DNA of 64,000 nt from Spironucleus salmonicida. Lineage: Eukaryota; Fornicata; Diplomonadida; Hexamitidae. Below the pieces are notes generated by a model. It saw nothing but the letters and a program-made list of their open reading frames with translations. It ran no database searches and had not been told where the DNA came from. This document shows, piece by piece, positions 12,209 through 62,551 of the stretch. Position 1 is the stretch's first letter, and each line of letters opens with the position of its first letter. The stretch lies in assembly GCA_000497125.2 (NCBI GenBank), contig CM035323.1, positions 194,001-258,000 of the forward strand. The letters are read 5' to 3'. The position numbers and the translations under genes are program-made.

Positions 12209-12640
12209 GGACCAGGTCTGGGTGGCCTCAACCAGGTGCTCTCGAGCTGACCGAGGGTGGCCGCAGCCAGGTGCTCTGGACCAGGTCTGGGTGGCCTCAA
12301 CCAGGTGCTCTCGAGCTGACCGAGGGTGGCCGCAGCCAAGTGCTCTCGAGCTGACCGAGGGTGGCCGCAGCCAGGTGCTCTGGACCAGGTCTGGGTGGCC
12401 GCAGCCAGGTGCTCTCGAGCTGACCGAGGGTGGCCGCAGCCAGGTGCTCTGGACCAGGTCTGGGTGGCCTCAACCAGGTGCTCTCGAGCTGACCGAGGGT
12501 GGCCGCAGCCAGGTGCTCTGGACCAGGTCTGGGTGGCCTCAACCAGGTGCTCTCGAGCTGACCGAGGGTGGCCGCAGCCAAGTGCTCTGGACCAGGTCTG
12601 GGTGGCCGCAGCCAGGTGCTCTCGAGCTGACCGAGGGTGG

Positions 12641-14488: not shown

Positions 14489-14944
14489 CGAGCTGACCGA
14501 GGGTGGCCGCAGCCAGGTGCTCTGGACCAGGTCTGGGTGGCCGCAGCCAGGTGCTCTCGAGCTGACCGAGGGTGGCCGCAGCCAGGTGCTCTGGACCAGG
14601 TCTGGGTGGCCTCAACCAGGTGCTCTCGAGCTGACCGAGGGTGGCCGCAGCCAGGTGCTCTGGACCAGGTCTGGGTGGCCTCAACCAGGTGCTCTCGAGC
14701 TGACCGAGGGTGGCCGCAGCCAGGTGCTCTGGACCAGGTCTGGGTGGCCTCAACCAGGTGCTCTCGAGCTGACCGAGGGTGGCCGCAGCCAGGTGCTCTG
14801 GACCAGGTCTGGGTGGCCTCAACCAGGTGCTCTCGAGCTGACCGAGGGTGGCCGCAGCCAGGTGCTCTCGAGCTGACCGAGGGTGGCCGCAGCCAGGTGC
14901 TCTGGACCAGGTCTGGGTGGCCTCAACCAGGTGCTCTGGACCAG

Positions 14945-20582: not shown

Positions 20583-20843
20583 TAAAGTGAAAAGTAGGTT
20601 TTATACTTAATATTAGTATACTTTCCTAACTTAAAAAATAAATCTTACTTCACAAAAGTGATATTAAATAATGTACACCATAGTATTTTATAGATTAATT
20701 ATTATTAGTAGTATACGTATTAATTATTATATAATTCTACTAATTCCATATTTTAAATTTTGATTTAAGTTCACTCCCAATTTTCCTCAAATTATATATT
20801 TTTCTATTTAACATTATTATACATAATCTACTATATCCCATCA

Positions 20844-20850
20844 CCACTCC
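20844..20850 (+). promoter_or_regulatory. CCACTCC promoter/initiator motif
   Basis: Exact CCACTCC 9 bp before the eIF2-beta ATG at 20860. Confidence 0.6.
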
Positions 20851-20859
20851 TTTAATTCG

Positions 20860-21582
20860 ATGTTCGACTCCACCATTAAAAAGCAAACAACCGTCAAAAA
20901 AGTAGTCAAAAAAATCGCCAAAAAGCAGTCTGCACCAAATATCTACGATAAAACGCAGATCGGAAAGCTCATTATCCTGACACCGAAAGAAGACTCCACC
21001 GCCATCCTGCAGTCGCTCTAGGAGCGCGCAATTGCGCGCCGGACCGCCGCACCTACGCCCGCGGCTTCAGACTTTTCGAGCCTCCCGAAGCACCTGAACG
21101 CCCCCGCGGAGGAGGTGGCGCTTCTGTGGCCCCTGAAAGCAGCCATCCAGTCGCAGGGAACCGACCAGCAGGCGGAGACATCGTATAAGGCGCTCCTGGC
21201 CGCACTCCGCGCTGCCCTCAACACTGGTCACGTCCATCAGGCTGAAATCACGCCGGAAACGCAGAAAATCGGCTCGCTACGCACCAAAATCACCAATTTC
21301 CAGGCAATTTGCGACAGCCTCAACCGCGCCAAAGAGGTCGTCAGCAAGTTCATCTCGCATCAGTTCGAGTGCGACTGCGCCGTCAACGACACCGACGGCG
21401 CTCTGCTCATCAAGAAACGTCTCCCAAACGACCAGATAGTCGGTATAATCAGGCGCTTCAAGAGCGAGTTCGTGCAGTGCGTGAGTTGCGGGAGCCTGAA
21501 CACGATTATCAGCAAGAACGAGGGCCTGAGAGATCAGCTTTTGAGCTGTGAGGAGTGCCAGGCGCAGAGGCACATCAAGTGA
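20860..21582 (+). CDS. Translation initiation factor eIF2 beta subunit
   Basis: A 240-residue protein. The C-terminal half is diagnostic: a helix-turn-helix region, the NDQIVGIIRRFKSEFVQC segment and a C4 zinc ribbon with CVSC at about 206-209 and CEEC at about 230-233. The N-terminus is Lys-rich, as in eukaryotic eIF2-beta where Lys blocks contact eIF5 and eIF2B, but it is shorter than in fungi or animals. eIF2-beta is part of the ternary complex that brings initiator tRNA to the 40S subunit. The gene is GC-rich yet keeps an internal TAG (Gln), showing the same code. Start chosen at the first ATG after the CCACTCC motif. Confidence 0.93.
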
Positions 21583-21873
21583 GCGAGAAAATGTTTATTT
21601 TGAGCGTTTTTGAAGCGAAAATATTAGCTCGAGTATGCTATAATAGTACTTCTGTGATTGCAGAATTTATGAGATGGAGATAAGATAAATTTCACGGTAA
21701 AATGTTTTGGGTGATCTGGCAGAGCGAGATACATATTATTAAGTGATTGAAAGGTAATAATTTTTATAAATAATGTCGAACATGTAAGTATCAGTGAGGG
21801 TCGACGTTCTCAATTACAGGATTTTTTCATAATAATAAAATTAATAATAATATATAAAATTAATGTATTAAAA

Positions 21874-22200
21874 ATGGGTTGTGGACTGTAAGTTTCTGCT
21901 CAAAATTAGAAGTTACCCCTTGAGGAATCTGAGATTGCACAGTTAAGTTCACGTAAATCTGACAAATTAGTCGCTTTGGTTGATACTGACTCGCAACATC
22001 CTGATTTTGGATGTTCCTCTATGTGGGACTAAGGGGACGAATTATCTCAGTCAAATATATCTATTTAAAACACGAAATACAGTTAGTTTACAAATTATAC
22101 AGCATTCTTGCATTGGTAAGAAGGGGTATTATTTTAGAAAGATGAGGAATTCATAAAACCAGACTAATTTTAAAACGAAAATGTTGAAGGGATATTTTGA
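21874..22200 (+). CDS. Small Met-Gly-Cys N-terminal protein, likely lipidated (108 aa)
   Basis: ATG at 21874 to TGA 22198-22200 with numerous TAA/TAG Gln codons. It begins Met-Gly-Cys-Gly, the classical N-myristoylation site with an adjacent palmitoylatable Cys, implying membrane association. The remainder is acidic and Ser/Gln-rich with no known domain. GTAAGT-like words occur near the start (21784 and about 21889), but splicing is not needed to keep the frame. The 291 bp before it hold no supported gene. Confidence 0.6.
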
Positions 22201-23760
22201 ATTATTTGGTCATCAAATTATTAGTAACGAATTAGTATTCGCTATGTTAGTATCTATTTTACTTGTTTATTGTCAGAATACATATAGAATGAATCACTTG
22301 CATTAAATGTAATTTAATGGTTAAACTATCACTATTACACTCTTTTGTTACTTATTATTAGTATATCCAACCATTCATTAGGTAACAAATAAATTAAAAA
22401 AGTTACTAAGAAAATCTTCTAAATACTAAACTATTAAATAATTTATTATCATAAACTAGGTTAATCATAGAAAATTATCATACTCGCCGTAATCACTGTC
22501 ATCAAACTATGGGTAATTCCAGTAGAACAATTAATCAGTGACTATCAAATTTTATTTCGGTAGTAATGTTTTTTTGTCTTAAAAATTATATATGAGAACA
22601 GTGGGTAATGTTGATGGAGTGATATGTTAAAATGTAGGTAATTAATTAAAAGGCTTGAGACTTTTAATAATTTTATAGTATTTATTTTTAAGGGAGTAGT
22701 AATCGATATTAGGGAAATATATCTCAGCAATTAGCTACCATTCGCAGCCTAATTCCGCACATGCGTCAAGAAGAGTTGTTTCTAGCTCAATGGTCCATAT
22801 AATTTTTTTTGGCATTAACCATAAAAATTTAACTATACAATATATTATAATATACTTATTCCAGTAGAAACTATCTATGCTGCTTTATAAGTTATGTATT
22901 ATTGAATCATATAATAGTATATTAATAATTTTATCTATAAATCAATTTATTTAAATTCTAAATATATGATGGATAAATTATTTTTCTGCATATCAATATT
23001 AAATTTGTATTTGTGTATTCATTTTACTTAAATATTATATTATTAACACTAATATTTATGCTACTTTTTAATTAAGAAATCAATAATTATATATTATGAG
23101 ACCTATGTGGAATTATCTATTATAATACTATAAATGATTTAATATAGGTATTTCATAATTGAAAGTTCTACTATATATAATGTAACTTTAAAAAGTATTT
23201 AAAACCCATAGATATTTAAAAATATTACTAATGGAGAATATTAATACATATTCAACTAGGTATGACTTTTTTAAATAGTTAAAAGTACTAGCTAGAGTTT
23301 TAATTCACTAAATATTAAATATTAAAGTTAGAACATATCTATTATAAATTTAAACTATTAGAAGTATTCATCATATTTTAAATAACATGCATTCATTTTT
23401 AGTACTTACTGTTTTGTTTTTAGTATAAATAGAATACCTTAATCAAAATAAATCATATTTTATGAATACATGTACAGTCTATACCTTAGTTATAATGTAA
23501 GAATACTGAATTCATGATATTTAAGGGAATTTATTAGATGGAAACATATTTAGTCAACTGCCGTTTAATAAAATACATATAAAATTTTTATCATGATGAA
23601 ATATATTATATTAATAAATCTTAAATAAATATATAACTGATAGTCACTCCACAGTATTTAAAACTAAAGCAATAACTATATAAGTAAAATTTAATAGTAA
23701 TTAGAGCTATCATAATTTATTATCATATAATATTAATTATATTGTTTTATTCCGCAAAAA
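22201..23760. other. AT-rich intergenic region
   Basis: 1.56 kb with no supported gene. A less AT-rich patch at 22735-22800 contains TAGCTCAATGGT, resembling a tRNA A-box, followed by an eight-T run, but no B-box or cloverleaf is present. A minus-strand open frame at 22545-22800 lacks an ATG. Confidence 0.5.
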
Positions 23761-24006
23761 ATGGCACCGCCTAAAGCAACTGAATATGACTAAGTGTAAC
23801 AAGATGTTAATTGGCGTTCCCGTATTTAGTCTGAAGAAAAATCTCAGTTTAGTGCTTAAAGAGAAAGACTTTATAACTTAGTTGAAACTGAAGAAGGTAA
23901 GTGGAGACCATAAAAAAAATTATTTTCAAGCAGAGATTGTGTACCTCTTCCTGAGTATCCTATGCCACCAAAAGAGAAGAAATAGAATCCCGATTTTTAT
24001 GGATGA
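23761..24006 (+). CDS. Small basic protein (81 aa)
   Basis: ATG at 23761 to TGA 24004-24006, with about eight TAA/TAG Gln codons. Starts Met-Ala-Pro-Pro-Lys and has a charged helical middle with Arg/Glu/Gln, then a Pro-rich C-terminal third (Pro-Leu-Pro-Glu-Tyr-Pro and Pro-Pro-Lys-Glu). Balanced protein-like composition in very AT-rich surroundings. No family recognised. Confidence 0.65.
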
Positions 24007-24079
24007 TGAGTAAGCCAATGAGGTCATATCTAGCAACTTATATATATTTCTTTTGTATATTTTTGACTTTCCTTAAATA

Positions 24080-24307
24080 ATGAAAACCAACCTCAATTAG
24101 TATAACTAAGTTTTAGAAGCTGAAGTATCATCTTATTAGAGAAAGTAAGAGATACTACGTATATCTAGTTAGATATACGATAAAATACATAGTAAATTCT
24201 GGTTTTAAGCTCCGTATCTAACCAAAAAGGCAGCAGAAAATGGGGCAAAATTGTATAGCTAAGTCTACGGAATTGTATCATAGGAGATAGTAAAATCTTT
24301 GAAATGA
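24080..24307 (+). CDS. Small hypothetical protein (75 aa)
   Basis: ATG at 24080 to TGA 24305-24307 with eight or more TAA/TAG Gln codons. Gln/Ser/Lys-rich helical composition with a central Lys-Phe-Trp-Phe aromatic cluster. Converges on the ESCRT-III gene with 25 bp between stops. No domain recognised. Confidence 0.6.
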
Positions 24308-24332
24308 AAAATTTTCTCACTTAATATTCGCA

Positions 24333-24911
24333 TCAGAAAATATCATCCATGTTCTAGTCGTGCTCTATAATTTCAGGCTATTTTTATATCTAAACACTAA
24401 CATTTTCACCTTTCATCTCAGCTTATAAGGCGGCTAAATCTTGATCAACTTCGTACTAATCAACTCCGTCTTAAGCAAACATAGCAAACTACTAGTCGAT
24501 TTATTATACTGCCATACTAAGCTACTACTACTCCATTTAGACTTCTTAGAAATCTTACATTAGATCTGTAGGGTCTCCAATTTGTTTAATAGCTTCTTTT
24601 TAAACTTCGATAACCTGTTTCGTTGTTTAGGCAATTTGAACTTAGCCTTAAACCTTTTGAATGGCCATCATTTAGTTCTAGAGACCTTTTACTTACTGTT
24701 CATAAGTTTTCTACATTTATAGAGACTATTATGCACCTGCGGGATTGTTCGATGCCAGTTATTACTTAGCTCGATTTCTTGCTTCCGAAGCTAAATTAGT
24801 ATAGTTGTTAATTTGAGCATTAAGTTTTTCTATCATAGCCTATTATGTTAATTTTGGTGGCTAGTTTGAAGGTGGTGGAGGAGGTGCTTGCTATTTCTTC
24901 TTGAAAAACAT
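24333..24911 (-). CDS. ESCRT-III subunit, SNF7/CHMP family
   Basis: A 192-residue all-helical protein. It begins MFFKKK plus a Pro-rich linker and then shows the SNF7 pattern: a long Ala/Gln/Leu helical hairpin, a Gln-Met-x-x-Ile-Gln-Lys region, an acidic second half with Asp-Gln-Asp-Leu-x-x-Leu-Gln-Ala-Glu-Met, and an acidic C-terminus ending near Met-Asp-Asp-Ile-Phe as a MIM-like tail. ESCRT-III polymers cut membrane necks in multivesicular-body formation and cytokinesis. The paralogue (CHMP4/Snf7 versus CHMP5/Vps60) cannot be settled by eye. About 30 Gln codons are TAA/TAG. A CCACTCC motif lies just before the ATG. Confidence 0.8.
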
Positions 24912-24918
24912 TGAATGT

Positions 24919-24925
24919 GGAGTGG
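24919..24925 (-). promoter_or_regulatory. CCACTCC promoter/initiator motif
   Basis: Exact minus-strand CCACTCC 7 bp before the ESCRT-III ATG at 24911. Confidence 0.6.
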
Positions 24926-25231
24926 GATGCTAAAGAGAGGATTTATTCATGAGGAAAGAAATGATCAAATTAAATTATTATATCTTATATATTCTTTATA
25001 TGAACTTTAAACAGAGGATTTATAAAGATTTTATCTATACATATCTAGTATCCCAGCTCGTTCCACTGTCAGTTTCGACTCTAAATTTCGCAATTCCCAT
25101 TTATACCTACAATAATGCTAACATTTACCTAAAATTAGCCTTTATAACTGCACCATAAAATTTTCATCACACCAACTCCTACATTTTTTCCACACAAAAT
25201 ATTATTATTATATCATAATAACGATATTTTT

Positions 25232-25238
25232 CCACTCC
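25232..25238 (+). promoter_or_regulatory. CCACTCC promoter/initiator motif
   Basis: Exact CCACTCC 15 bp before the ATG at 25254, followed by AAATTTT. Confidence 0.6.
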
Positions 25239-25253
25239 AAATTTTATCAAAAA

Positions 25254-26444
25254 ATGGAGTCACCGCTATCGCGCTCCGTGTCGAACTCGCTCTCCCAGTC
25301 GGGCCGTAAGCGCGTGATCAAGCGTGTGGTTGTGCGGAAGGTGCGTCAGACGCCCTAGAAGGGCCAGCTCTCGCCTGCCTTCAACGGCGAGTTGTTCGGC
25401 AACGGCTCTGTCCTGCAGGACGGAGCCCTCCAGGCGTCTCCCGTGGCGTCCCCAATTGCTGTAATCAATCCGCTGGCGATCTCCTCCCGCGAGGTCTCGC
25501 CGCTGAACTCGCGCGCGCTCTCGAACTCGCGAAAGCCAACCGCAGTCACGACCTCCCGGTCGCGTCCTATTTCACGCTCACGCGCGCGTGGGGCGCAGCA
25601 GAAGAGCGTGAATTAGCCTGACCGCTTCGGAACGGCCATTTTTGCGGTGAAAGCGCCGCAAACGCCGATAAAGCACGAAAAGCTGCCCCTGGACCCGCTG
25701 CAGACCGAGAGGAACCTGACGCGGCAGCTATAGTAGCAGATAGACTTTCTGTGCGATCGGGAGCTGTTTGACAAGCTGAACACCCAAATCGCGCAGCTTT
25801 AGAGCAGCTTGAAGGAGAAAAATAACGATATTTCGGGCCTCAGAAAGCAGCTGAGTCTGCGCGAAAAATCAATTAAAAGCGCAAGCTGCGAGGACCAGTT
25901 CGGAAAGTCGCTTTTCGAGAAGTTGCATGACGAAATTAAGTACAAAAACAAGGAAAATTAACACCTTAAAGAGCATATAAAATCGCTATAAAATTAAAAT
26001 GACAAACTTGAAAAACGGGAGCGGGAGCTGAACACAAAACTACCGCTCCTTTTCTACAAATTGACTGGAGAGAACTGCGAAATCGACGAAATGGTGAATG
26101 CTCTAGATAACATATAATAATAGGAAATATCTAAAAGGATGCAGTGCGCGAACCTTTTAAGCGAAAACGACGAAAAAGGAAGCGAAATACGTATGCTAAT
26201 CGCAGAAAAAACGAGTCTGAAAAAGATTATTTCACAAAAGGAGCGAAAATTCGAATTTGATTTGCGAAATTTACAAGTAAAAAACGAAAGCTTAGAAGAG
26301 AAATTGAGCCAGTTCAGCGCTGATTACGAGGAGCTCATTAAGGAGTATAAGAACGTCGTGTTGAGGGTTTAGAACAATGGGAGTATTTGTGCTGAGGAGA
26401 GCTTCGATTATGGGTAGTTTGCAGAAGATGGAGATGATATGTGA
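25254..26444 (+). CDS. Coiled-coil protein with basic Ser-rich head (396 aa)
   Basis: A continuous code-6 frame. Residues 1-120 are basic and Ser/Arg/Pro-rich, including an Arg-Lys-Arg-Val-Ile-Lys-Arg cluster and SR/SP repeats resembling a phosphoregulated microtubule- or DNA-binding head. Residues about 150-375 are a heptad-like Leu/Lys/Glu/Gln coiled coil. The C-terminus is acidic. The 5' half is GC-rich and the 3' half AT-rich within one frame, a sharp internal composition gradient. Function unknown; a cytoskeletal role is a guess. Confidence 0.82.
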
Positions 26445-48296: not shown

Positions 48297-49655
48297 ATGA
48301 AATCTCCCCCATCCTCTTTATTATCTTTATTTACAGCTCCTTAGATAATATCATCTACAGTTATTTCTGGCTATCACAATCAAACAAAGCTATATGCAAT
48401 AACAGCTGATAGGGACTTACTTACTGATAACTATATAAAAATATTTTCAGAACTAATTTCATAGGATATTTTTATTATAAATAAGCTATTTAAGCTAAAA
48501 TCTAATTATATTGTAACATTTCCAACATAATTTTCACCTCTTAAAGAGTATGTAACCGAAACTATTCTTTCTAATTAACAAACTAATATTATCATTATTT
48601 AGCTATTAAATTTAGTCAATATGACACATTGTAAAAAGTTTATTCACGGTAATATTAACACAAATAATTTATATTATATCCAGAATAAGCTTTACTTAGG
48701 TTTATGTGGTCCCTGGAGCGATAATTATTTTGAAATACAAATTAATGATATCAGCCAGAAAAATGATTTAATTTCCTGTGGGAAAGTTATATTAGAGCTT
48801 ATTGCCAATAAATAAACTTTAGGTGTAGGCGAATTTCAAGTAGCTGCAGATATGCTTATTTAAGGTGAAAGATGCGGAAAAGTTCTTGATTTCCTAGAAC
48901 GAAAAGGCAATAATACCACAAAATAGTACAACAACGATTTTATCAAGCATACAAGAAAAAAAGACTTTAATGATAAGATAAGCGAGCTCAAAAATTTGGA
49001 AAAATAAATTTCTTTAGAAGTGGAATTTCCAGATATCATTAATATACAATAAGACGAATATTGTCTAAAAATTTTATAACTAAAAAATTAAGCCAAAGAA
49101 GTGGAAATTGATTATAAAACAATAATTGATGGTGTTAATAACAAATATAATACTATATTAACACAATATGATAAACTTGATCGTCTTTTTAAAGAAACTG
49201 ATGAATTAACATATAATAATACTAATAGTAAGAAAAAAATTATTATTCAACAGAATAAGTCTAATAATTCGTAAATCGACCGAAAACCTACGAAAAAGGA
49301 GTTTGCTATTGAAATTTTTAAAATTTCCGCTAATTTCAACACACAAATGGAAATTGATTTTGCATTTTCGCTTTAATTTGACAATTTTATTTTTTCTGGT
49401 GAATCTGGCAAGCAATTTGTCCCCAAAACTGACAAGAAACTTATTAATTTCAAGGCATAAATTGACGTTTTTGGCGAAAAAAGTGAAGGAGCGGACGAAA
49501 AATTTGGTATCATTATTATGTGTTGTAAATACTAAAAAGTTAAAGAATTTTACAGCTTCAGTGTGAAAATTGGAAGCGGGGAGGGCCGTTTTTGGATACT
49601 ATCTTCTTGTGGAAAAGTTAGTTTATATATTTAAATAGATGGGTGGGATAATTGA
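48297..49655 (+). CDS. Pseudokinase-like protein with coiled coil and C-terminal beta domain (452 aa)
   Basis: ATG at 48297 to TGA 49653-49655. Residues about 80-175 resemble a protein-kinase C-lobe: a His-Gly-Asn-Ile-Asn-x-x-Asn catalytic loop in place of HRDLKxxN, Leu-Gly-Leu-Cys-Gly-Pro-Trp where DFG would be, and Asp-Leu-Ile-Ser-Cys-Gly-Lys-Val-Ile-Leu-Glu-Leu like helix F. The catalytic Asp and the DFG Asp are both missing, so activity is unlikely. A charged coiled coil covers about 215-310 and the last 120 residues look beta-rich. The fold assignment is inference from the spacing of these motifs; coding status is strong. Confidence 0.6.
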
Positions 49656-49909: not shown

Positions 49910-50104
49910 ATGAAATTGGTTAACAAAGCTAAAAGCACGAATAAGCTACCTAAGGTATCTGCACGTATTTCTGTATAAGCTTAAGAGAGTGTTATTCCAG
50001 ATTTAGAGGTGAGCGTCTTATCTCGATAAAGTACTGTCGAAGAGCTTGATGACCTATTATAAATGGTGTCTGACTGGTCGGACTTGGACAATTGGACGAA
50101 ATGA
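49910..50104 (+). CDS. Small acidic-tailed protein, left paralogue (64 aa)
   Basis: ATG at 49910 to TGA 50102-50104. Starts Met-Lys-Leu-Val, basic head, then Glu/Leu helix and the terminal Val-Ser-Asp-Trp-Ser-Asp-Leu-Asp-Asn-Trp-Thr-Lys. Its last 13 codons lie inside the left inverted-repeat arm; the rest is outside yet still recognisably homologous to the gene at 55789-55980. Stop is 1 bp from that of the convergent neighbour. Confidence 0.65.
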
Positions 50105-50105
50105 G

Positions 50106-50600
50106 TCACTTCCTGCGGGCCCTGAGCAGCAGCGCCTCGCGTGCCCTGCGGAGGTCGGTCGCCCGCTGGCGCTGGACGGCGTAGCGCTCGCCCATGGCCC
50201 GGAGCTGGGCCTGCTGGCGCTCCATCTTCGCCTCGATGCCGGCGACGACCTGGTGCAGCCCCAGGAGCTCGGCCACCGCGACGGCGATCTGCTCGCGGAA
50301 CATGCGGCTGTCCTCGGTGACCTCGCTGCAGGTGCTCTCGCTCACCTCCACCATCAGGAGGGACCGCGACACCTGCCGCACGAAGGAGGGCTCGGGCGAG
50401 CGGGCGGAGAGCAGCAGGTCCTCCCTCGCGCCGAGCGCCTTGGGCCGCAGGGACAGCGCGGGGTACAGCGCGTCCGCGAAGGCCTTCGCCGCCTTCTGGG
50501 CCCGCGGCGTGCACAGCGGCGCCAGCACCGGCGGGGTGGTGGGCCGGTCTTCTGCAGCAGTGCCTTCATTCTGGTTGGACGAAGTAGTTTGCCCTACCAT
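50106..50600 (-). CDS. IR protein D, left copy (164 aa)
   Basis: ATG at 50600 to TGA 50106-50108. N-terminal 30 residues are Ser/Thr/Pro-rich; residues 30-80 are Ala/Leu helical; residues about 95-164 form a Gln/Arg/Glu amphipathic helix ending in a strongly basic tail, typical of a coiled-coil subunit. Very GC-rich with no TAA/TAG codon. A TTCACTCC element lies about 30 bp before the ATG. Differs from the right copy by Thr versus Ala near residue 21. Unknown family. Confidence 0.75.
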   Translation of the reverse strand: MVGQTTSSNQNEGTAAEDRPTTPPVLAPLCTPRAQKAAKAFADALYPALSLRPKALGAREDLLLSARSPEPSFVRQVSRSLLMVEVSESTCSEVTEDSRMFREQIAVAVAELLGLHQVVAGIEAKMERQQAQLRAMGERYAVQRQRATDLRRAREALLLRARRK

Positions 50601-50719
50601 ATGGCTAACTGCCAGAAATGTCGGCGGAGTGAAAACGTAAACTTAACAGCACTCAGATCGCACCCATGGTTTCAGTGGTCTCGTCTCCGCGCCAGCTCGC
50701 GTCAGAAGGCGGCGTCCTG

Positions 50720-51043
50720 TCAGCACACGGTGTAGCCGAAGCGGTCCTCGAAGTCGAAGGCCTGCACCACCGCGCCGAGGAGGGTCACACCGGCCAGCGC
50801 GGGGGCCTGCAGGGAGAGGCAGAGGCGCGCCGAGGGCGGGATGTCCAGCAGCGCGCGGTTGCCCACCAGCGGCACCGCTATGTCCCCGGCGGCGGTGTGC
50901 ACGAGGCAGGACCCCACGGCGCAGGGCGCGGCCAGCACTACCTCCCGCACCCTCACGATCGCGTCGAAGGCGAAGTGCAGGGGCTGCCCGCTGGCGTCCA
51001 GAGGGAACTGCGGGCGGGCGAGCAGGAGCGGGCCCAGGTCCAT
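50720..51043 (-). CDS. IR protein B, left copy (107 aa)
   Basis: ATG at 51043 to TGA 50720-50722. A compact beta-rich protein: alternating Val/Leu/Ala strands with Gly/Pro/Asp turns, starting Met-Asp-Leu-Gly-Pro and ending Phe-Gly-Tyr-Thr-Val-Cys. GC-rich with no TAA/TAG codon. Divergent from protein C with 16 bp between ATGs. Differs from the right copy at one residue (Asp/Asn). Unknown family. Confidence 0.7.
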   Translation of the reverse strand: MDLGPLLLARPQFPLDASGQPLHFAFDAIVRVREVVLAAPCAVGSCLVHTAAGDIAVPLVGNRALLDIPPSARLCLSLQAPALAGVTLLGAVVQAFDFEDRFGYTVC

Positions 51044-51059
51044 TCGAAGTCCGCTCCGA

Positions 51060-51437
51060 ATGCTCACTCCACGGCGGTCCGTCATCTTCGACGCGAACCC
51101 CGCCCTCACGCGGCTCGCGCGCTCCCAGCTGCTGGGGACGCAGATCGTAGACCTCGGCCAGGCGGTGGCGGCCCTGCAGGCGGAGCAGGACGCCCTGCGC
51201 ACCGAGCAGTGCCAGCTGCGCTACGACATCGCGGAGCTCACCGCCCGGCCCCCCGCGGTGCGCCATGCCCCCCTCCTGCACTTCGAGGCCTTCTACCCTA
51301 CCGAGGCGCGCGGCAACGCCCCCCTCCTGCGCACCGAGCTGGCCCGCCTCCGCGCCGAGATCGGCCAGCTGGGCGCGCTCCTCACCACAGCACCCGGCCC
51401 GCCTGCGCAACCTCCGCCGCCTGCCACAGTGCCCTGA
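51060..51437 (+). CDS. IR protein C, left copy (125 aa)
   Basis: ATG at 51060 to TGA 51435-51437. Begins Met-Leu-Thr-Pro-Arg-Arg; residues about 20-65 are a Leu/Ala/Gln/Glu heptad coil, residues 90-110 another short helix, ending in a Pro-rich tail. GC-rich and free of TAA/TAG. Its 3' end overlaps the convergent gene by 56 bp. Proteins C and D both carry helices suitable for pairing. Confidence 0.7.
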   Translation: MLTPRRSVIFDANPALTRLARSQLLGTQIVDLGQAVAALQAEQDALRTEQCQLRYDIAELTARPPAVRHAPLLHFEAFYPTEARGNAPLLRTELARLRAEIGQLGALLTTAPGPPAQPPPPATVP

Positions 51438-51885
51438 GCTGCAGGTCCAGGTACGCCGCGCTCCAGTGCTGCTCCGCGCCCTGCTGGCGAAGGGCGTCCG
51501 CCTGCTGCGCCGCGTTCCGGCTCGAGATGTCGCTGAAGTTCGCCAGCGAGTCAGTCATTAGGGGGATAGATCGATCCAACTCAGGAAGCTCGCGCACTCG
51601 GAAAATCTACTCAATTGGATCGACCTTTCCGTCCTCAGTGAGCGCTTTCAGCACACCCTTATAGTCGGCCAAAGAGCAGTAATTTTTGCCTTTGACCAGC
51701 CCTGTATATTTTTTAACCATCTCGATGGTGAGCATGTAGTGGTTCTTCATGCCACTGCGCATTTGCTTTAGGTTGGAGTGCCGGTTGTGGTTACAGTCAA
51801 ACCAGTAGAAGATCGCCAGCAGCTCAATATGTCTAATTTTCCACCTATAGACACTACCAGCTATATAGCAGTAGAATTTTTTCAT
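51382..51885 (-). CDS. Truncated left copy of the MGC-type protein (167 aa)
   Basis: Shares the C-terminal 145 residues with the protein at 53582-54511, starting at Leu-Ala-Ile-Phe-Tyr-Trp-Phe-Asp. The first ATG after an upstream TGA is at 51885, giving about 22 residues that are only distantly like the right copy (Val-Tyr-Arg-Trp versus Val-Phe-Tyr-Arg-Phe). About 140 N-terminal residues including the Met-Gly-Cys lipidation site are absent. It may be a non-functional fragment or a short soluble version. Confidence 0.6.
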
Positions 51886-52032
51886 TTTTTAATCGATTCA
51901 CCTCGCTTTTAGTGAAATCTACATTTTAATCTTAAATCAATTCGCGTTTAATGACAATAATTTATTCACTATTTACGTCATATTCCCAATTATATACAAA
52001 AGTATTACATACCACCCTTCCACATAGAAAAA

Positions 52033-53409
52033 ATGCAAATCCCGGAAACGACCCAAAAGTTCTCAGCGCTGAGCACAATCTCTGGAAACTAGGTTTCCAC
52101 TAAAAATATCAATCTAAAGTCCAAAACCCCACTTCCGCACGTGATGCCCTCAGATTTTGAGATTGTAGCGCTTTTAGGGGCTGGCGATGCCGGCCGCGTG
52201 TACCTCGCGAAGAACCTGAAAGCATTCATTCCGCAGGCAAAGAACCAGAAAATCTTCGCCCTCAAAGTCCTCTCAAAGCGCGATTTGGTGGAGCGGAACA
52301 AAACGAAGCGTTTCGTATAAGAATACGAAGTATTGTCGCAGTTGGATCACCCTTTCCTGGCGCGCATGTACGCCGCATTTTCGGACCAGCGCAACTACTA
52401 CCTGCTAATGGAATTTTGCGAGGGCGGCGAGCTGGCGCAAATCCTCAAAAAACAGGCATTTTTGCAGGAAAATGTCGCAAAATAATACGTTTCTGAGCTC
52501 CTGACGGCGCTCGAATATCTGCATTTCCACGGCATAATTTACAGGGATTTGAAGACCGAAAACGTCCTAATCCGCAACGATCACGTGAAACTCACGGATT
52601 TTGACCTCGCGAAACAAGTGATATAAGCGCAGCAAATCGCTTCATTTGAGCCCAAAATGTACAAGAAAAAACTGCTTTTTCCCACTCCAATTCACCAGTC
52701 CTCGACGTCGTTCGTCGGCACTGCGGAGTACCTCTCGCCGGACGTCATTTCGGGCCAGCACTCGCAGGCAGCGGATTTCTGGTCCCTCGGGATTTTGATT
52801 TACGAGCTTTTGTACGGAAAAACGCCTTTTTACACTCCAAATTCTGGATTTCAGGCGATTTCGCGTCGAATTCAGGCCGGAATTTACGCGTTTCCGGCGT
52901 TCCCGAAAGTGAGCGAAAACGCGAAGGATTTGATCAAAAAATTGCTCACTTTGAAGCCCGAAAATCGGCTCGGATTTCAGTTCGGAATCGCAGAAATTAA
53001 GGCCCATTTGTGGTTCAAGGGCGTCAATTTCGCGAGAATTTACGAAAGTGAAAATCAAATTCAAATTGATTTTCCACTCCAATAATTTAGGGAGCTTCCG
53101 CGGGCGCTGGAAGTGATGAGCCGCGATTTCGCGGGAACGGGCTTTTCGCTGCCGGCGGGGGCGCATGAGCTGTGCGAGAAGATGATATAAGCGTACGAGA
53201 AAAACGGCCTTATCGCGCGGCCGAAAGCGTGCAATTTTGACGAGGAAATGGGCGTGGAAAACGTTAATTTGAACGCCAACGGAATCGGGACCATCAGCGG
53301 TGCGAAAACGGAGGCGAAACGCGTCGGTCTGAGGGATTTGTTCGCGCGGCGCGAGGGCCAGCGGGCGAGTTTGAGCGCCGCGAGGGGCGAGGGCGACGTT
53401 GAGGAGTGA
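52033..53409 (+). CDS. AGC-family Ser/Thr protein kinase, DFD type (Fpk1/Nrc-2/AGCVIII-like)
   Basis: A 458-residue kinase in the spacer between the inverted repeats. Features: Gly-rich loop [10 protein letters not shown] near 49, ALKVLSK lysine near 78, an alpha-C Glu, YRDLKTEN near 171, TDFDLAK near 188 (DFD instead of DFG), an insertion of about 30 residues, then [13 protein letters not shown] activation segment near 228, [19 protein letters not shown] and ENRLGF. DFD plus an insert before a Ser-Phe-Val-Gly-Thr segment typifies plant AGCVIII and fungal Fpk1/Nrc-2 kinases, known regulators of flippases, polar growth and auxin carriers. Four or more TAA/TAG codons are internal. After the TGA the same frame stays protein-like for about 42 codons. 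Confidence 0.93.
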
Positions 53410-53581
53410 ACGGTTTGGGCACGCGTTGCAAATTATCGCATAACGGGCGCTGGGGGAAAATCGCTAGTCAGCAGATCAAAATATAGGGGTGGGGTGAAGC
53501 CGTTTGGGACTCGCGAAAAGGAAGTGAAAATTTTCGGTAAATACTATTATTATATAATATAATATGTTTTTGATTTCAAAA

Positions 53582-54511
53582 ATGGGTTGTGCAGGCGCAG
53601 ACGAAATAGACGACGAGCTGAAGCATGCCGCGCCAGATTTTGAGCTGCAAACCAATCCTGCCTATACCGCATACTGCTAGGCAGATTTCAGGTGCCAGTT
53701 CAAGCCGTTTGAAATGGCGGATTTGTTTTTCGAGGACTTCGAAATCGCGTAATGCGACCCGCCAGAGGCGAGTAAAAAGGCGAGTAAAAAGAAAGGCGAC
53801 GACTCAGATTCAGAGCCTGAGGAAAGGGAGTTCAAGCAGATGCACTATCGAAGCGTCAGGATGCGCTTCAGTATTTTTTCTGAAAAAATGCGATAGATTT
53901 ACGATTTCCTAACGCCGCAGGACGTGTGCGCAAGTCATAATTATATCAACTTTAGACACGGTTTTCAGCTGAGGCGCATGGCGGAATTCGCAGATGTTCA
54001 TATTTCCGTTGAGGAGTTCATAAACTATGGATATGTGTTTTATAGGTTTAACGAAATTCTCAAGAATCCAGCGCTGGCCATCTTCTACTGGTTTGACTGT
54101 AACCACAACCGGCACTCCAACCTAAAGCAAATGCGCAGTGGCATGAAGAACCACTACATGCTCACCATCGAGATGGTTAAAAAATATACAGGGCTGGTCA
54201 AAGGCAAAAATTACTGCTCTTTGGCCGACTATAAGGGTGTGCTGAAAGCGCTCACTGAGGACGGAAAGGTCGATCCAATTGAGTAGATTTTCCGAGTGCG
54301 CGAGCTTCCTGAGTTGGATCGATCTATCCCCCTAATGACTGACTCGCTGGCGAACTTCAGCGACATCTCGAGCCGGAACGCGGCGCAGCAGGCGGACGCC
54401 CTTCGCCAGCAGGGCGCGGAGCAGCACTGGAGCGCGGCGTACCTGGACCTGCAGCTCAGGGCACTGTGGCAGGCGGCGGAGGTTGCGCAGGCGGGCCGGG
54501 TGCTGTGGTGA
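53582..54511 (+). CDS. Met-Gly-Cys lipidated protein, full right copy (309 aa)
   Basis: ATG at 53582 to TGA 54509-54511. Met-Gly-Cys-Ala start predicts N-myristoylation and palmitoylation. An acidic/Lys linker occurs near 65-80. Residues about 100-250 are ordered, including an EF-hand-like Phe-Asp-x-Asn-x-Asn loop near 180. The last 57 residues, from a Met-Thr-Asp, switch to very GC-rich codons and Ala/Gln helix, suggesting fusion of a separate small gene. The 3' 432 bp lie in the right repeat arm. A GTAAAT at 53536 and TGTGCAG near 53594 would splice upstream sequence into codon 5 in frame, an alternative 5' structure. No family recognised. Confidence 0.65.
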
Positions 54512-54833
54512 GGAGCGCGCCCAGCTGGCCGATCTCGGCGCGGAGGCGGGCCAGCTCGGTGCGCAGGAGGGGGGCGTTGCCGCGCGCCTCGGTAGGGTAG
54601 AAGGCCTCGAAGTGCAGGAGGGGGGCATGGCGCACCGCGGGGGGCCGGGCGGTGAGCTCCGCGATGTCGTAGCGCAGCTGGCACTGCTCGGTGCGCAGGG
54701 CGTCCTGCTCCGCCTGCAGGGCCGCCACCGCCTGGCCGAGGTCTACGATCTGCGTCCCCAGCAGCTGGGAGCGCGCGAGCCGCGTGAGGGCGGGGTTCGC
54801 GTCGAAGATGACGGACCGCCGTGGAGTGAGCAT
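54456..54833 (-). CDS. IR protein C, right copy (125 aa)
   Basis: Identical by eye to the left copy at 51060-51437. Its last 56 bp overlap the 3' end of the convergent MGC gene. ATG lies 16 bp from that of protein B. A CACTCCA word falls inside its codons 3-5 rather than upstream. Confidence 0.7.
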   Translation of the reverse strand: MLTPRRSVIFDANPALTRLARSQLLGTQIVDLGQAVAALQAEQDALRTEQCQLRYDIAELTARPPAVRHAPLLHFEAFYPTEARGNAPLLRTELARLRAEIGQLGALLTTAPGPPAQPPPPATVP

Positions 54834-54849
54834 TCGGAGCGGACTTCGA

Positions 54850-55173
54850 ATGGACCTGGGCCCGCTCCTGCTCGCCCGCCCGCAGTTCCCTCTGGACGCC
54901 AGCGGGCAGCCCCTGCACTTCGCCTTCGACGCGATCGTGAGGGTGCGGGAGGTAGTGCTGGCCGCGCCCTGCGCCGTGGGGTCCTGCCTCGTGCACACCG
55001 CCGCCGGGGACATAGCGGTGCCGCTGGTGGGCAACCGCGCGCTGCTGGACATCCCGCCCTCGGCGCGCCTCTGCCTCTCCCTGCAGGCCCCCGCGCTGGC
55101 CGGTGTGACCCTCCTCGGCGCGGTGGTGCAGGCCTTCAACTTCGAGGACCGCTTCGGCTACACCGTGTGCTGA
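54850..55173 (+). CDS. IR protein B, right copy (107 aa)
   Basis: Second copy of the compact beta-rich protein at 50720-51043, differing at one visible codon (Asn for Asp near residue 99). GC-rich, no TAA/TAG. Confidence 0.7.
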   Translation: MDLGPLLLARPQFPLDASGQPLHFAFDAIVRVREVVLAAPCAVGSCLVHTAAGDIAVPLVGNRALLDIPPSARLCLSLQAPALAGVTLLGAVVQAFNFEDRFGYTVC

Positions 55174-55292
55174 CAGGACGCCGCCTTCTGACGCGAGCTG
55201 GCGCGGAGACGAGACCACTGAAACCATGGGTGCGATCTGAGTGCTGTTAAGTTTACGTTTTCACTCCGCCGACATTTCTGGCAGTTAGCCAT

Positions 55293-55787
55293 ATGGTAGG
55301 GCAAACTACTTCGTCCAACCAGAATGAAGGCACTGCTGCAGAAGACCGGCCCGCCACCCCGCCGGTGCTGGCGCCGCTGTGCACGCCGCGGGCCCAGAAG
55401 GCGGCGAAGGCCTTCGCGGACGCGCTGTACCCCGCGCTGTCCCTGCGGCCCAAGGCGCTCGGCGCGAGGGAGGACCTGCTGCTCTCCGCCCGCTCGCCCG
55501 AGCCCTCCTTCGTGCGGCAGGTGTCGCGGTCCCTCCTGATGGTGGAGGTGAGCGAGAGCACCTGCAGCGAGGTCACCGAGGACAGCCGCATGTTCCGCGA
55601 GCAGATCGCCGTCGCGGTGGCCGAGCTCCTGGGGCTGCACCAGGTCGTCGCCGGCATCGAGGCGAAGATGGAGCGCCAGCAGGCCCAGCTCCGGGCCATG
55701 GGCGAGCGCTACGCCGTCCAGCGCCAGCGGGCGACCGACCTCCGCAGGGCACGCGAGGCGCTGCTGCTCAGGGCCCGCAGGAAGTGA
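55293..55787 (+). CDS. IR protein D, right copy (164 aa)
   Basis: Second copy of 50106-50600, with Ala for Thr near residue 21. TTTTCACTCCGCC lies about 30 bp before the ATG. The TGA is 1 bp from the TGA of the convergent gene. Confidence 0.75.
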   Translation: MVGQTTSSNQNEGTAAEDRPATPPVLAPLCTPRAQKAAKAFADALYPALSLRPKALGAREDLLLSARSPEPSFVRQVSRSLLMVEVSESTCSEVTEDSRMFREQIAVAVAELLGLHQVVAGIEAKMERQQAQLRAMGERYAVQRQRATDLRRAREALLLRARRK

Positions 55788-55788
55788 C

Positions 55789-55980
55789 TCATTTCGTCCA
55801 ATTGTCCAAGTCCGACCAGTCCGACACCTGCGACAATATGTCAGTTAATTGATCTGCTGACCCTTCGTAGCAAAGGCTTCGTGAGTCTTAGGGAATGATC
55901 TGCTCAATTACAAGCTAAGTTTATACCAGTCGGTGCTGGGGCAAATTTTTGTTCTTTGTTTATCGCTTAATTAATTTCAT
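55789..55980 (-). CDS. Small acidic-tailed protein, right paralogue (63 aa)
   Basis: ATG at 55980 to TGA 55789-55791. Starts Met-Lys-Leu-Ile with a basic head containing Asn-Leu-Pro, and ends with the same Val-Ser-Asp-Trp-Ser-Asp-Leu-Asp-Asn-Trp-Thr-Lys as the left paralogue. Outside the arm the two proteins are diverged but alignable. The 340 bp beyond (55981-56320) are AT-rich with no gene seen. Confidence 0.65.
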
Positions 55981-56320: not shown

Positions 56321-57451
56321 TCACTCGCCTTCGGCCTCTGCTTCTACCTCCCCGCCCTCTGCGATTTTCTTCTTGTACCCGCTGAAAAACTGGTCCATCT
56401 CCCCACCTTCTATTTCACCGCCTTATTCCTCGCCGTCGCCTTCAGCTCCGGCCCTAAACATCCCCTTCGCGAAAATGATCTTTCCGGTAAAGCCGATCTT
56501 TAGCTCCTTCTCGGCCTCGGCCTTTTCGGCCTCTTCTAGCTGCTGTTGCACCCTCTTCTGCTTCCACACGGCGAAGGTCTCCTCGTTCACCGGTGTTCCC
56601 TGCGTTATCGCGTTCCGCTTCCTTTCGATTTCCTCCTCGAACTGCTCGTTGTCCAAATCCTCGTCGAAGTCCTCAGGCTTCTCGAAGAGCACAAAATCGA
56701 TTGGGATGCAATGTCTGTACTGGCAATATCCCTGCTGCTTCTCGTGGGCGCAGTTCCAGCCAAATCCGATGACGTTCTCTCTGCACGCCTGGATGAAATT
56801 CTTACAAATGAGGTCAGAGTAGTTATGCGTTCTCGTGCGGTCCTGGAAATCAGCGAGCATTTCGCTTAAGACTTCGTCGTAGTCTTTTCCGTTTTTGAAG
56901 CTTTTTTGTTTTGCTCTGTATTCGATGATTTGGTCGCGCATTTCTCTATAGATATCCAGCTTACCCATGTCTTCTGAAACGTAATCCTTAGCTTTATCAA
57001 GCTTTTCCTGCTCTTTGCGCATTTTTTCTTCTAGTATTTGCTGTGGCGTCATAATTTCCACTTTCTCACCGTGTGAATATTTACATTTCTCAGCTTTGTC
57101 GCAGCAGCCGTATTGGTGGAGAATACAGGGGTAATTTTTAGGATTTTCGCCTTCGGGGACAGGGGGTTGCTTCAAAGTCGATCTAAGCATTTAAAGCTAT
57201 TGTAAACGCTTTTCGTCCTCTTTTTACTTCTTAAGGATGTCAGCCTGAGATTATTAAAGCTTGCTTGGTAAAGCATTCTTTATAACAGTATCAACTTTGT
57301 TTTAAACTTATTTTTATACAGCCTATATCTGCTACTGTACTTTTTTGGATTTATTCTTGTTTTTCAGACCAAAAGTAGCATCTTCTATCGTCTGCTTTGC
57401 CTCTTTTTATAGTGCTTTCTTGGAAACATCCAATTGCTTCTTTGGTGGCAT
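56321..57451 (-). CDS. ZC3H15/DFRP1/Tma46 translation-associated zinc-finger protein
   Basis: A 376-residue orthologue of DFRP1. It begins Met-Pro-Pro-Lys-Lys and has the conserved Thr-Phe-Gly-Leu-Lys-Asn-Lys-Asn block near 26-33. A first CCCH finger (Cys x Cys-Cys-Asp-Lys x Cys x His) lies near 103-121, and the second near 213-245 with ICKNFIQAC ... GWNC ... GYCQYRH and Pro-Ile-Asp-Phe-Val-Leu. The GKIIFAKGMF element follows near 325, then an acidic Gly/Glu tail. The protein binds and stabilises the DRG1 GTPase on ribosomes. The 5' third is AT-rich and full of TAA/TAG; the 3' two thirds is GC-rich. Divergent from NOP2 with 94 bp. Confidence 0.93.
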
Positions 57452-57528
57452 TACGACTCAAAGTGGAATGGAAAATGGACAGGATTAATAAATAATTTAT
57501 ATATCATAATGTTATTAAAAGAATCTTT

Positions 57529-57535
57529 CCACTCC
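57529..57535 (+). promoter_or_regulatory. CCACTCC promoter/initiator motif
   Basis: Exact CCACTCC 10 bp before the NOP2 ATG. Confidence 0.6.
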
Positions 57536-57545
57536 CCATTCCATA

Positions 57546-58913
57546 ATGTCACTAGTTTCACTGTCATCTAAAGCTTAAATGGTTGATAACGAGCCAATTG
57601 AAGAACAATTCTGTAATGAAGAGGAAAACTATGAAATAGAAGAAGTCTAAAACTAACCTAGAAATCTTCTTGAACTATCTGATTCTGTATCTATTGACGA
57701 AGAACTTTTAGCTCATCGTAAGCTTCTTATTGAATAGAACATACCCGAACCAGCACCAGCACCATAGAATACTCAATATGATCCCAGATCAGATCTACCA
57801 AATTCACCTGAACAGACTTTAGCTCGCCTTTCTAGAGTAAGTTATATCCTATCAAACTTCAAAAATGAAAGAAACCCATAGGTTCCACGTCCCACATATG
57901 TTTAAATCCTAAAATAAGATGTCATCAATCTCTATGGATATTCTGATGATGTTGCTGAAATTTTACTTGGAGTTTTCGGCCCAGTAGAGTTCCTTAGTTT
58001 TGTATAAGCTTCTGAAAAACCTAGACCACTCACAATCAGGGTAAATCCTTTGAAGGCAAAAAGAAGAGATGTTGCCGCCGCACTACTTTCTAGAGGAGTG
58101 GAATTGGAGCCCATAACTTGGTCTCCTGATGGTCTTACTGTGTTTTCATCCTAAATACCCCTAGGTGCAACTCCTGAATATCTGAAAGGTCTTTATATGA
58201 TATAAGATGCTGCTTCTATGATGCCAGTTTTGGCTCTTCGTCCCCAAGCTAATGAAAAAATTATCGATATATCAGCAGCACCAGGAGGTAAAACTACACA
58301 TATCGCTTCCTTAATGAAAAACACTGGCGTACTTATTGCTAATGATTTTAACCGTTTAAGAATTGATGCATTATAGGCAAATTTAGCTAGAATGGGAGTT
58401 ACTAACACAATTGTTGTAAATTATGATGGTCGAAAGTTACCTTATGGTGGAATGGACAGAGTACTGTTAGATGCACCTTGTACTGGTCTTGGTGTTATCT
58501 GCAAGGATCCTAAAGCAAAATGTTCTAGAAACTTTTAAGACCTAGACCGATAGTAGGCTCTTTAAAGAGAGCTTTTATGGCATGCAATAGATATGGTATC
58601 TAACAAATCTAATTCTCCAAGAATGATTGTGTATTCAACATGCTCTGTAACTATCGCAGAAAATGAAGCTGTTGTCGACTGGGTATTATAAAAGCGTGGT
58701 GACTGTTAAATTGTTGAGACTGGTTTAGTATCTGGTAATCCAGGTATTGGAAATTATAGAGGTAAGAAGTTCTTTTATGGAATGGAAAAATCTCGAAGAT
58801 TCTATCCTCATACACATAACGTATAGGGCTTTTATGTTTGCTGTATCTAGAGGAAACCTGGTATGAAACCTCTAGTTGAAAAATTTAATTAGGTTGCTGG
58901 TAAGGATGAATGA
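57546..58913 (+). CDS. NOP2: NOP2/NSUN1 25S rRNA m5C methyltransferase
   Basis: A 455-residue enzyme. After an acidic N-terminus, the pre-catalytic Arg-Val-Asn-Pro-Leu-Lys-x-x-Arg-Arg-Asp segment appears near 165. [19 protein letters not shown] follows near 205. The SAM site is [10 protein letters not shown] near 240, [10 protein letters not shown] near 306 holds one catalytic Cys, YSTCSVT near 362 the second, and [15 protein letters not shown] near 418 closes the domain. All are NOP2 signatures. It methylates large-subunit rRNA and supports 60S assembly in the nucleolus. About 15 Gln codons are TAA/TAG. Confidence 0.95.
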
Positions 58914-61053: not shown

Positions 61054-62551
61054 TTATATTATATACAACCACCAAATATTAAAATTATCTCGCAGCTAAA
61101 TTTTTATATTTAATTACTATATTATGCGATTTAGCCATTTTGTTAAAAGTGTAGATATGTTCCACCCATAAAACCCAAAATGTCGCATTCCCTCACTCCC
61201 CCAATTCACCATTTTCGCCCCTCTCCCCCCTCTCGCCCAGCAGCTCCCTCAGCCGCTGAATCTCCAGATCCCGCTCCCGCACGACCCCGAGCCACTCCAT
61301 CCGCTCGAAATTGACCTCAATTTCGATCATTTGCTTCATTTCTTCTGCGAAATCGCTCCTGGCGCTGAAAATGTCATTTTCGTACTCATTTTCGACCTCT
61401 TATAGCTGCTCGCTCACGTCGTACAACTGCTATAAGACCCCTTCCCACTCCTTCTACCCAATTTGCACGACCGAACCCTCAATTTCGACCACAGAATCTC
61501 TCCCAACAACACTCCCCACCATACTCCCGCAAACGCTCCTAACGCTCCGATTTACGCCCTAAATCCGACTGGGCGTCTTCGCGTAATTTCTAATTTCCTT
61601 AGTCACGAGCCCCAACTGCAAAGTCTCTTTATTCGACTGGAAGCCATCAACGCATTAATGCAAGTTCAGGAACATGCAAATTTGCGCTGCGAGGCGCTTG
61701 TTCCGGAGCTGCAAAAACGGCCGCAGGGCCATTGTGAGCGCAGACGAGCGGAACGACGTCGCCAGGGAAGACGTTTTGGCGGCGTTTCTGAGCTCCTTGA
61801 GGGAGCGGTCGAGCATGAGGAGCGACGTGCGGATGAAGGCGCCCTCCTGCTAAACCTGCTTAGAGGCCTCCTGCTGGTGCGGCTCGGAGCCCGCGAGGTC
61901 GACGAAGCAGATCGTCGAGGAGCGAATTCGCACGAAAACGAGGCAGTGGGAGCGCGAACTCGCGGAATTTAACTTCGTGGAGGCGACTTCGCGATTTTGC
62001 AGAATTTGCGAAAGCTGCGATTGGAGCGATTCGGTCGTTATCGCCTTCCAGGCCCGCGCCGGAAGCGGGTCGCTGCCGGTCCCTATGATGCGCAGAATGC
62101 TGCCCGTGATCAGGTCCTGCGCCTGGTTCATGTAAATTTGCACGGCCGAAATTTCCACTTCGCTGGACTGCAGGAGGTGGAAAACGGCCATTTGGAAGAC
62201 TCCGGGCTCGTTTTATGAGCCGAATAGCGTGTGCGATTTTCCGGCCGACGTGACGCCGTATGAGAGCTCCAGGAGCGGAAATCCCTGTTCTGCGGCCGAA
62301 AGGAGCGGAAATAGCGCCTCAAACGCGTCGGAATTCGTCGAATTTGACGGTAGCGCTGTATCGAACTCGTGGGACGTTTCAATTCCGGTGATCGGGTCGT
62401 GCGTGATGACAAAATTGCCTTCTGCGCGGATGCAGGGGACGTCGGAAACGCGCTCTTTGGGGAATGCCGGGCGGACGCGCGCAATGACCGAAATCGGAGC
62501 GGGCGGTGCTGCGGAGACAGAAGAGGTCAGTTGTGACGCTGTAAGGTCCAT
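61022..62551 (-). CDS. Kinesin motor protein, possibly kinesin-6-like (509 aa)
   Basis: The motor domain is recognisable: PISVIARVRP near 20, P-loop YGVTSAGKSHT near 105 (GKS rather than GKT), switch I SASSRSHCL near 215, switch II FVDLAGSEP near 232 and a Ser-Leu-x-x-Leu-Asp-Arg helix. The Tyr-Gly-Val-Thr P-loop start recalls kinesin-6. Loops are compact, and residues from about 385 form a Glu/Gln/Arg coiled-coil tail. The tail frame passes the point where a one-base shift would give a TGA after Gly-Glu-Leu-Gly at about 61197, and reads on into AT-rich DNA to TGA 61022-61024, overlapping the next gene by 32 bp; the last 58 residues are doubtful. CCACTCC lies 10 bp before the ATG. Confidence 0.88.

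Follow-up and report, generated by a model that had tools for sequence, protein, structure and literature searches.

Within a 64,000-nucleotide stretch of the Spironucleus salmonicida genome (GenBank assembly GCA_000497125.2, contig CM035323.1, here termed C8, positions 194001-258000; hereafter the window), two nearly identical arms face each other across a short spacer that carries a protein kinase gene. The arms are strongly enriched in G and C, the small genes that cross their outer limits are identical inside the arms and diverged paralogues outside them, and their inner limits cut through a gene that is complete on one side only. On balance, this combination of features probably reflects an inverted duplication of some age, in which gene conversion, perhaps of a GC-biased kind, homogenised the central part. 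Below, coordinates refer to the window unless a contig prefix is given.

Arm 1 occupies 50065-51819 on the plus strand and arm 2 occupies 54074-55828 on the minus strand; each measures 1755 b and has a GC content of 67.4%, and the spacer between them (51820-54073, 2254 b) has a GC content of 46.9%. A repeat search returned this as the one long inverted pair in the window (50050-51820 / 54073-55843, 99% complementary), with no second inverted pair of at least 150 nt in the 64 kb. Base-by-base comparison of arm 1 with the reverse complement of arm 2 identified 4 mismatches in 1755 b, or 99.77% identity, at arm 1 positions 50071 (T in arm 1, G in arm 2), 50540 (T/C), 50755 (C/T), and 51814 (C/G). 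Two of the four sit no more than 7 bases from an arm end and are silent by codon reading, while the mismatch at 50540 replaces Thr (arm 1) with Ala (arm 2) in the open reading frame (ORF) MVGQ and that at 50755 replaces Asp with Asn in ORF MDLG. An inverted repeat of about 1.75 kb with equal and near-identical arms had been proposed in an earlier reading of the same DNA (the original prediction), together with a count of arm differences as a check, and the comparison bears out the proposal. The spacer had been placed at 51814-54079 because it was counted from the last mismatch; counted from the last shared base, it spans 51820-54073.

Genome searches covered the called bases of the assembly (14,471,397 bases in 37 contigs). 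The arm 1 query matched both arms and no third copy, and a part of the spacer (52033-53580) and the downstream genes (56321-58913) were each assigned to a single genome location. A chance origin of the arms is ruled out by their length and identity. A dispersed repeat or transposon is ruled out as well, by the occurrence of the arm at two places only and by the lack of any Pfam or NCBIfam family above cut-off for the arm-borne ORFs MVGQ, MDLG, and MLTP. All genes were read with genetic code 6, in which TAA and TAG specify Gln and TGA is the stop codon, in keeping with the window's genes, whose frames continue across TAA and TAG and end at TGA.

Outer and inner edges of the arms

Each outer edge falls within a small gene, one of 64 aa at 49910-50104 on the plus strand (arm 1) and one of 63 aa at 55789-55980 on the minus strand (arm 2). 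The last 12 residues of the two products, which are encoded inside the arms, are identical (12/12), whereas the portions encoded outside match at 12 of 50 aligned positions, and the starts align. The outside similarity has a global score of 40 against -6.8 ± 9.2 for shuffled sequences, a value reached by 1 of 20000 shuffles; it persists when the MKL start is removed (p 3e-4, 20000 shuffles), in local alignment (p 0.003, 2000 shuffles), and at the nucleotide level, where 89 of 166 columns match (codon-shuffle p 0.0025, 2000 shuffles). A whole-genome search with the small protein at E values up to 10 identified no relative beyond these two loci. The paralogy rests on 50 residues and is accordingly significant but short. 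The boundary genes had been described in the original prediction as diverged outside the arms and identical inside, a description that holds at 12/50 versus 12/12 residues, and the contrary case, in which the flanking genes would prove unrelated when aligned, is not what the shuffles indicate. Because both outer boundaries lie inside an old paralogue pair, the two sides are probably more anciently related than the near-identity of the arms would imply, and were probably old relatives already when the arms became identical. Later homogenisation by gene conversion is therefore the economical reading of the outer edges.

The inner edges are of a different nature. The inner edge of arm 2 cuts a complete gene, here termed gene A (53582-54511, plus strand), which encodes a 309-aa protein beginning MGCA and crosses from the spacer into the arm. 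Arm 1 carries a 5'-truncated copy (51382-51885, minus strand) that retains the C-terminal part and lacks about 164 residues; its open frame runs on for 66 bases outside the arm, up to an ATG with A-rich surroundings that is possibly a new start codon. The kinase gene that the arms had been said to flank does lie in the spacer, which in addition holds the 5' half of gene A. Translation in three frames of the sequence upstream of the inner edge of arm 1 gave nothing above shuffles, and an alignment anchored at the inner edges scored -4 against -6.4 ± 6.1 (p 0.34), so that no homology is detectable past them. These results speak against a symmetric old duplication at the inner edges, and since the residues past arm 1's inner edge are unlike gene A, the duplication was asymmetric. 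Of the earlier proposal of an old inverted duplication with gene conversion, the part that rests on the outer paralogues is thus supported, and a symmetric arrangement finds no support at the inner edges.

The sharp inner edge, the truncated copy of gene A, and the six bases shared at the very end of the arms there would also suit one recent ectopic copying event, in which arm 2 served as the template for mending a break in arm 1. Copying would have started in the small paralogous gene and ended at non-homologous or micro-homologous sequence, with no continuing conversion and with a high GC content that was already present. An identity of 99.77%, taken alone, fits one young event of this type. 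We regard this explanation as possible but rather unlikely, as by itself it leaves unexplained both the GC content of at least 0.90 at third codon positions (GC3) of the arm ORFs and the recurrence of mirror-image pairs with GC-rich genes, which are described in the next section. Less probable by far is that the arms mediate a reversible inversion of the 2.25-kb spacer, which would switch the kinase and the 5' end of gene A relative to the flanks and would change which arm bears the full-length gene A. What speaks for such a switch is geometry, namely the near-identical facing arms and the position of gene A over one inner edge; at the human palindrome P6, 3 inversions compared with 56 conversions were reported among 83 phased chromosomes (PMC3723533), a ratio that argues against it.

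If the arms do derive from an old inverted duplication followed by conversion, the duplication would have taken in at least the small outer gene, as the diverged paralogues suggest. Recombinational repair between the facing arms would then have copied sequence non-reciprocally from arm to arm, so that the central 1.75 kb stayed or became identical and the DNA outside the tract diverged further, as indicated by the step in identity. The outer limit of copying would fall within the small gene, and on the inner side copying would end where the two arms cease to be homologous, the first half of gene A being absent from arm 1. The copying probably favoured G and C, which would account for the high GC content seen in the arms as a whole, at their third codon positions, and in their non-coding gap; this is the weakest step of the scheme. 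The kinase gene would simply have been enclosed between arms that carry at least three small ORFs.

Base composition and mirror-image pairs elsewhere

The arms stand out against flanks of much lower GC content (30.3% in the left 5 kb and 36.7% in the right 5 kb), and the step extends to individual genes. The GC3 values of the arm ORFs are 0.93 (MVGQ), 0.95 (MDLG), and 0.90 (MLTP), as compared with 0.22, 0.23, 0.26, and 0.55 for four genes measured outside the repeat and 0.29 and 0.44 for those portions of the small genes that lie outside the arms. Within gene A, GC3 rises from 0.55 outside the arm to 0.67 between the arm edge and an SDIS motif and to 0.94 in the tail. A non-coding gap in arm 2 (55174-55292, 119 b) has a GC content of 56% versus 17% and 24% for intergenic DNA outside the repeat, and intergenic DNA of the spacer has 40% and 35%. 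As the non-coding DNA is GC-rich too, codon selection is unlikely to be the sole cause.

With the present pair on C8 counted, mirror-image pairs were found on C1, C3, C5 (twice), C6, and C8, three of them examined by sequence and three by match coordinates only. The searches made elsewhere in the genome started from GC-rich sequence and for this reason do not estimate how common such pairs are. In the three mirror pairs examined, arm identity ranges from 98.1 to 99.8%. The C6 pair, which carries relatives of gene A, is inverted, extends over 6.9 kb at 98.26% identity, and may be longer, as it lies at the edge of one sequence piece; its 250-b windows have GC contents of 0.48-0.69 except at the ends (0.21-0.46). 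The GC3 of the gene A relatives is 0.92 in this pair and 0.54 and 0.21 in the other two, for which no mirror pair was seen. The C3 pair (C3:1085001-1101000) has arms of at least 6.4 kb with 98.1% identity around a spacer of about 3 kb, with GC contents of 0.29-0.77 in 400-b windows. Its genes include one with a TRAPP domain (E 4e-15, GC3 0.98) and one with an F420_ligase domain (E 7e-53, GC3 0.93). TRAPP is a eukaryotic trafficking family, and the four TRAPP-family matches that a genome search found form two mirror pairs, on C3 and C1. F420-ligase-like matches were found on C3 (three, on alternating strands), on C8 (one, 94%), and in a mirror pair on C5. A GC-rich island at C8:187701-190000 gave 20 matches, its own locus counted, with mirror-placed relatives on C3 and C5. 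One arm gap of the C3 pair has a GC content of 65%, and one of the C6 pair 58%. Additionally, a third copy of the F420-ligase gene, 100% identical, is located at C3:1104715; mirror-placed gene pairs, known from match coordinates only, lie at C1:1419214-1425934, C5:1012284-1020336, and C5:1060273-1069765; and two sets of C5 pieces have a common mirror centre by arithmetic on the listed coordinates.

Two further explanations are the hardest to sustain. It is very improbable that the arms are two copies of GC-rich DNA that came from another organism. Their composition is unlike that of the flanks, and protein searches at E <= 0.001 returned no homologue for ORF MVGQ (0/530 candidates) or gene A (0/620) from a database that also returned none of the organism's own proteins; however, the portion of gene A inside the arm comes from a family that has an AT-rich member, TAG is read as Gln in this portion, and the comparable C3 mirror pair holds the TRAPP-domain gene at a GC3 of 0.98. 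Inverted repeats are a known type of assembly artefact, but a missed adapter or a misjoined repeat is the least probable origin of all, given the dissimilar sequence of all four flanks and the 4 mismatches between the arms. Provided that this is the published assembly, its PacBio reads (N50 14.6 kb, 161x) can moreover span the 5.8-kb structure (PMC9509377).

Tests of the link between duplication and GC content

The second strongly GC-rich block in the window is a tandem array of units of about 69 bases (5382-14944; about 9.6 kb, 68% GC). The association of high GC content with duplication was assessed over C8:1-258000 (182,000 called bases), whose overall GC content of 37.6% exceeds the published S. 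salmonicida mean of 33.5% (PMC9509377); repeats with a partner outside that stretch were counted as non-repeat. Repeats have a GC content of 41.0% and the remainder 35.3%, and 29 of 42 high-GC windows lie in repeats when the 69-b array is included.

In addition to the absence of homology past the inner edges, several observations weigh against homogenisation by GC-biased conversion as a general explanation. When the 69-b array is left out, 10 of 23 high-GC windows lie in repeats, which make up 128 of 343 windows (Fisher p 0.51), and circular shifts reach the overlap between high-GC windows and repeats in 140/342 cases and the difference in mean GC in 107/342. An inverted 4.4-kb pair with 99.4% identity (C8:154726-159147 / 179476-183897) is embedded in blocks with 33% GC, and a direct 14.7-kb pair on C8 (97.3% identity) has a GC content of 31%. 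The outer 1.6 kb of the C3 arms is AT-rich (0.29-0.51 GC in 400-b windows), and a 400-b non-coding stretch inside a C3 arm has only 28% GC. GC-rich islands are also present in queries with a single genome match, one in 61401-62500 and two in 20801-26000; DFRP, which has a single genome match, reaches a GC3 of 0.55, and the kinase gene, which is not duplicated, reaches 0.64. Finally, conversion is inferred from one genome, with no event directly observed. The repeats of 97-99% identity and ordinary GC content on C8 rule out, locally, that high GC content goes with every repeat, and the islands in 61401-62500 and 20801-26000, which match one place, rule out that all GC-rich islands are repeats. 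The ordinary-GC repeats and the AT-rich parts of the C3 arms together mean that high GC content is not an automatic outcome of duplication; it would have to depend on the age of a pair, on its spacing, or on its rate of conversion.

The direction of change was assessed for the C3 pair only, with a paralogue as outgroup. Among 3379 three-way aligned sites there are 38 arm differences (13 AT>GC, 16 GC>AT, and 9 other), and the 29 informative ones, a small number, yield a GC* of 0.59. This value is above a reference of 0.25 (p 2e-4), which is based on the published intergenic GC content of 25.4% for S. salmonicida (PMC3916229), and above 0.335 (p 0.006), and is not clearly above 0.44 (p 0.08). 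A broader proposal, which we find plausible if short of probable, is that the genome harbours a set of gene-bearing mirror-image repeats subject to strong arm-to-arm, GC-biased conversion; in a genome of about one-third GC, such conversion may have raised genes such as the TRAPP-domain gene to a GC3 of 0.98, and recombination would then serve to maintain selected genes in a binucleate protist that is not known to have regular sex.

Related systems and genes of the locus

The S. salmonicida genome was reported to comprise 14.7 Mb in nine chromosomes and 42 scaffolds with 33.5% GC, and its duplicated regions to have a GC content of 44.7% versus 30.7% elsewhere; gene conversion was suggested around its cysteine-rich surface-protein genes (PMC9509377). 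Those regions resemble the arms described here in being duplicated, GC-rich, and candidates for conversion. The duplication threshold used in that study was 2000 b, however, so that the 1.75-kb pair falls below it, and the parts of the account covered here describe neither a mirror-image arrangement nor GC3, both of which we report (PMC9509377). Literature searches on gene conversion, palindromes, and inverted repeats in Spironucleus, other diplomonads, and protists brought up no mirror-image GC-rich gene pairs in diplomonads.

Palindromes of mammalian sex chromosomes, for which GC-biased arm-to-arm conversion has been described (PMC8981503, PMC3723533), share with this locus the near-identical facing arms, the spacer, the genes in the arms, and arms that are GC-richer than the flanks. 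The locus differs from these palindromes in its short arms (1.75 kb), its protist host, its large GC step (67% vs 30% and 37%), and in that conversion is deduced from one genome. Palindromes of parthenogenetic animals, namely Folsomia candida and, as cited in the same work, Adineta vaga, likewise consist of inverted duplicated gene blocks for which conversion was discussed (PMC5490193). In F. candida, however, Ks values ranged widely and concerted evolution was unsupported in the parts of that report considered here (PMC5490193), whereas the three mirror pairs examined in the present genome have arm identities of 98.1-99.8%. If confirmed, our preferred interpretation would mean that palindrome-style, possibly GC-biased gene conversion shapes diplomonad genes, far from the mammalian cases, and would offer an explanation for the reported association of duplication with high GC content in the S. 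salmonicida genome. The small size of the locus and the genes split across each of its edges make it convenient for measuring conversion and inversion with long reads that already exist.

The kinase gene of the spacer (52141-53409, plus strand, code 6) matches Pfam Pkinase with an E value of 4.3e-64, its start codon being approximate. An AT-rich ORF at 48297-49655 (452 aa under code 6) has no Pfam match above cut-off. By eye, it contains what we take to be kinase-like fragments, and it is possibly a decayed kinase.

Gene A has no match above cut-off in Pfam and none in NCBIfam. Four complete relatives, 23-26% identical, were found in the genome (C6:1038964 on the plus strand, C6:1071406 on the minus strand, C8:697455, and C4:1407423), and four of the five complete members start with MGCG, the window member with MGCA. 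An AlphaFold model (mean pLDDT 61.7) gave 0/427 matches at E <= 0.001 against the PDB, with a best E value of 0.023; most of the top entries listed are chains of neuronal calcium sensors or of calmodulin, and the highest TM-score is 0.36. An EF-hand-like fold is accordingly a low-confidence prediction that may serve as a lead only.

The arm ORFs are MVGQ (164 aa; 55293-55787 on the plus strand of arm 2, with a mirror copy at 50106-50600 on the minus strand in arm 1), MDLG (107 aa; 54850-55173, plus strand, and 50720-51043, minus strand), and MLTP (125 aa; 54456-54833, minus strand, and 51060-51437, plus strand). The position-specific GC pattern supports their status as real, if still predicted, genes, and MLTP has weak coiled-coil-type matches below cut-off (best E 0.0045). 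MLTP and MDLG are arranged back to back, their ATGs being separated by 16 nearly palindromic bases (54834-54849).

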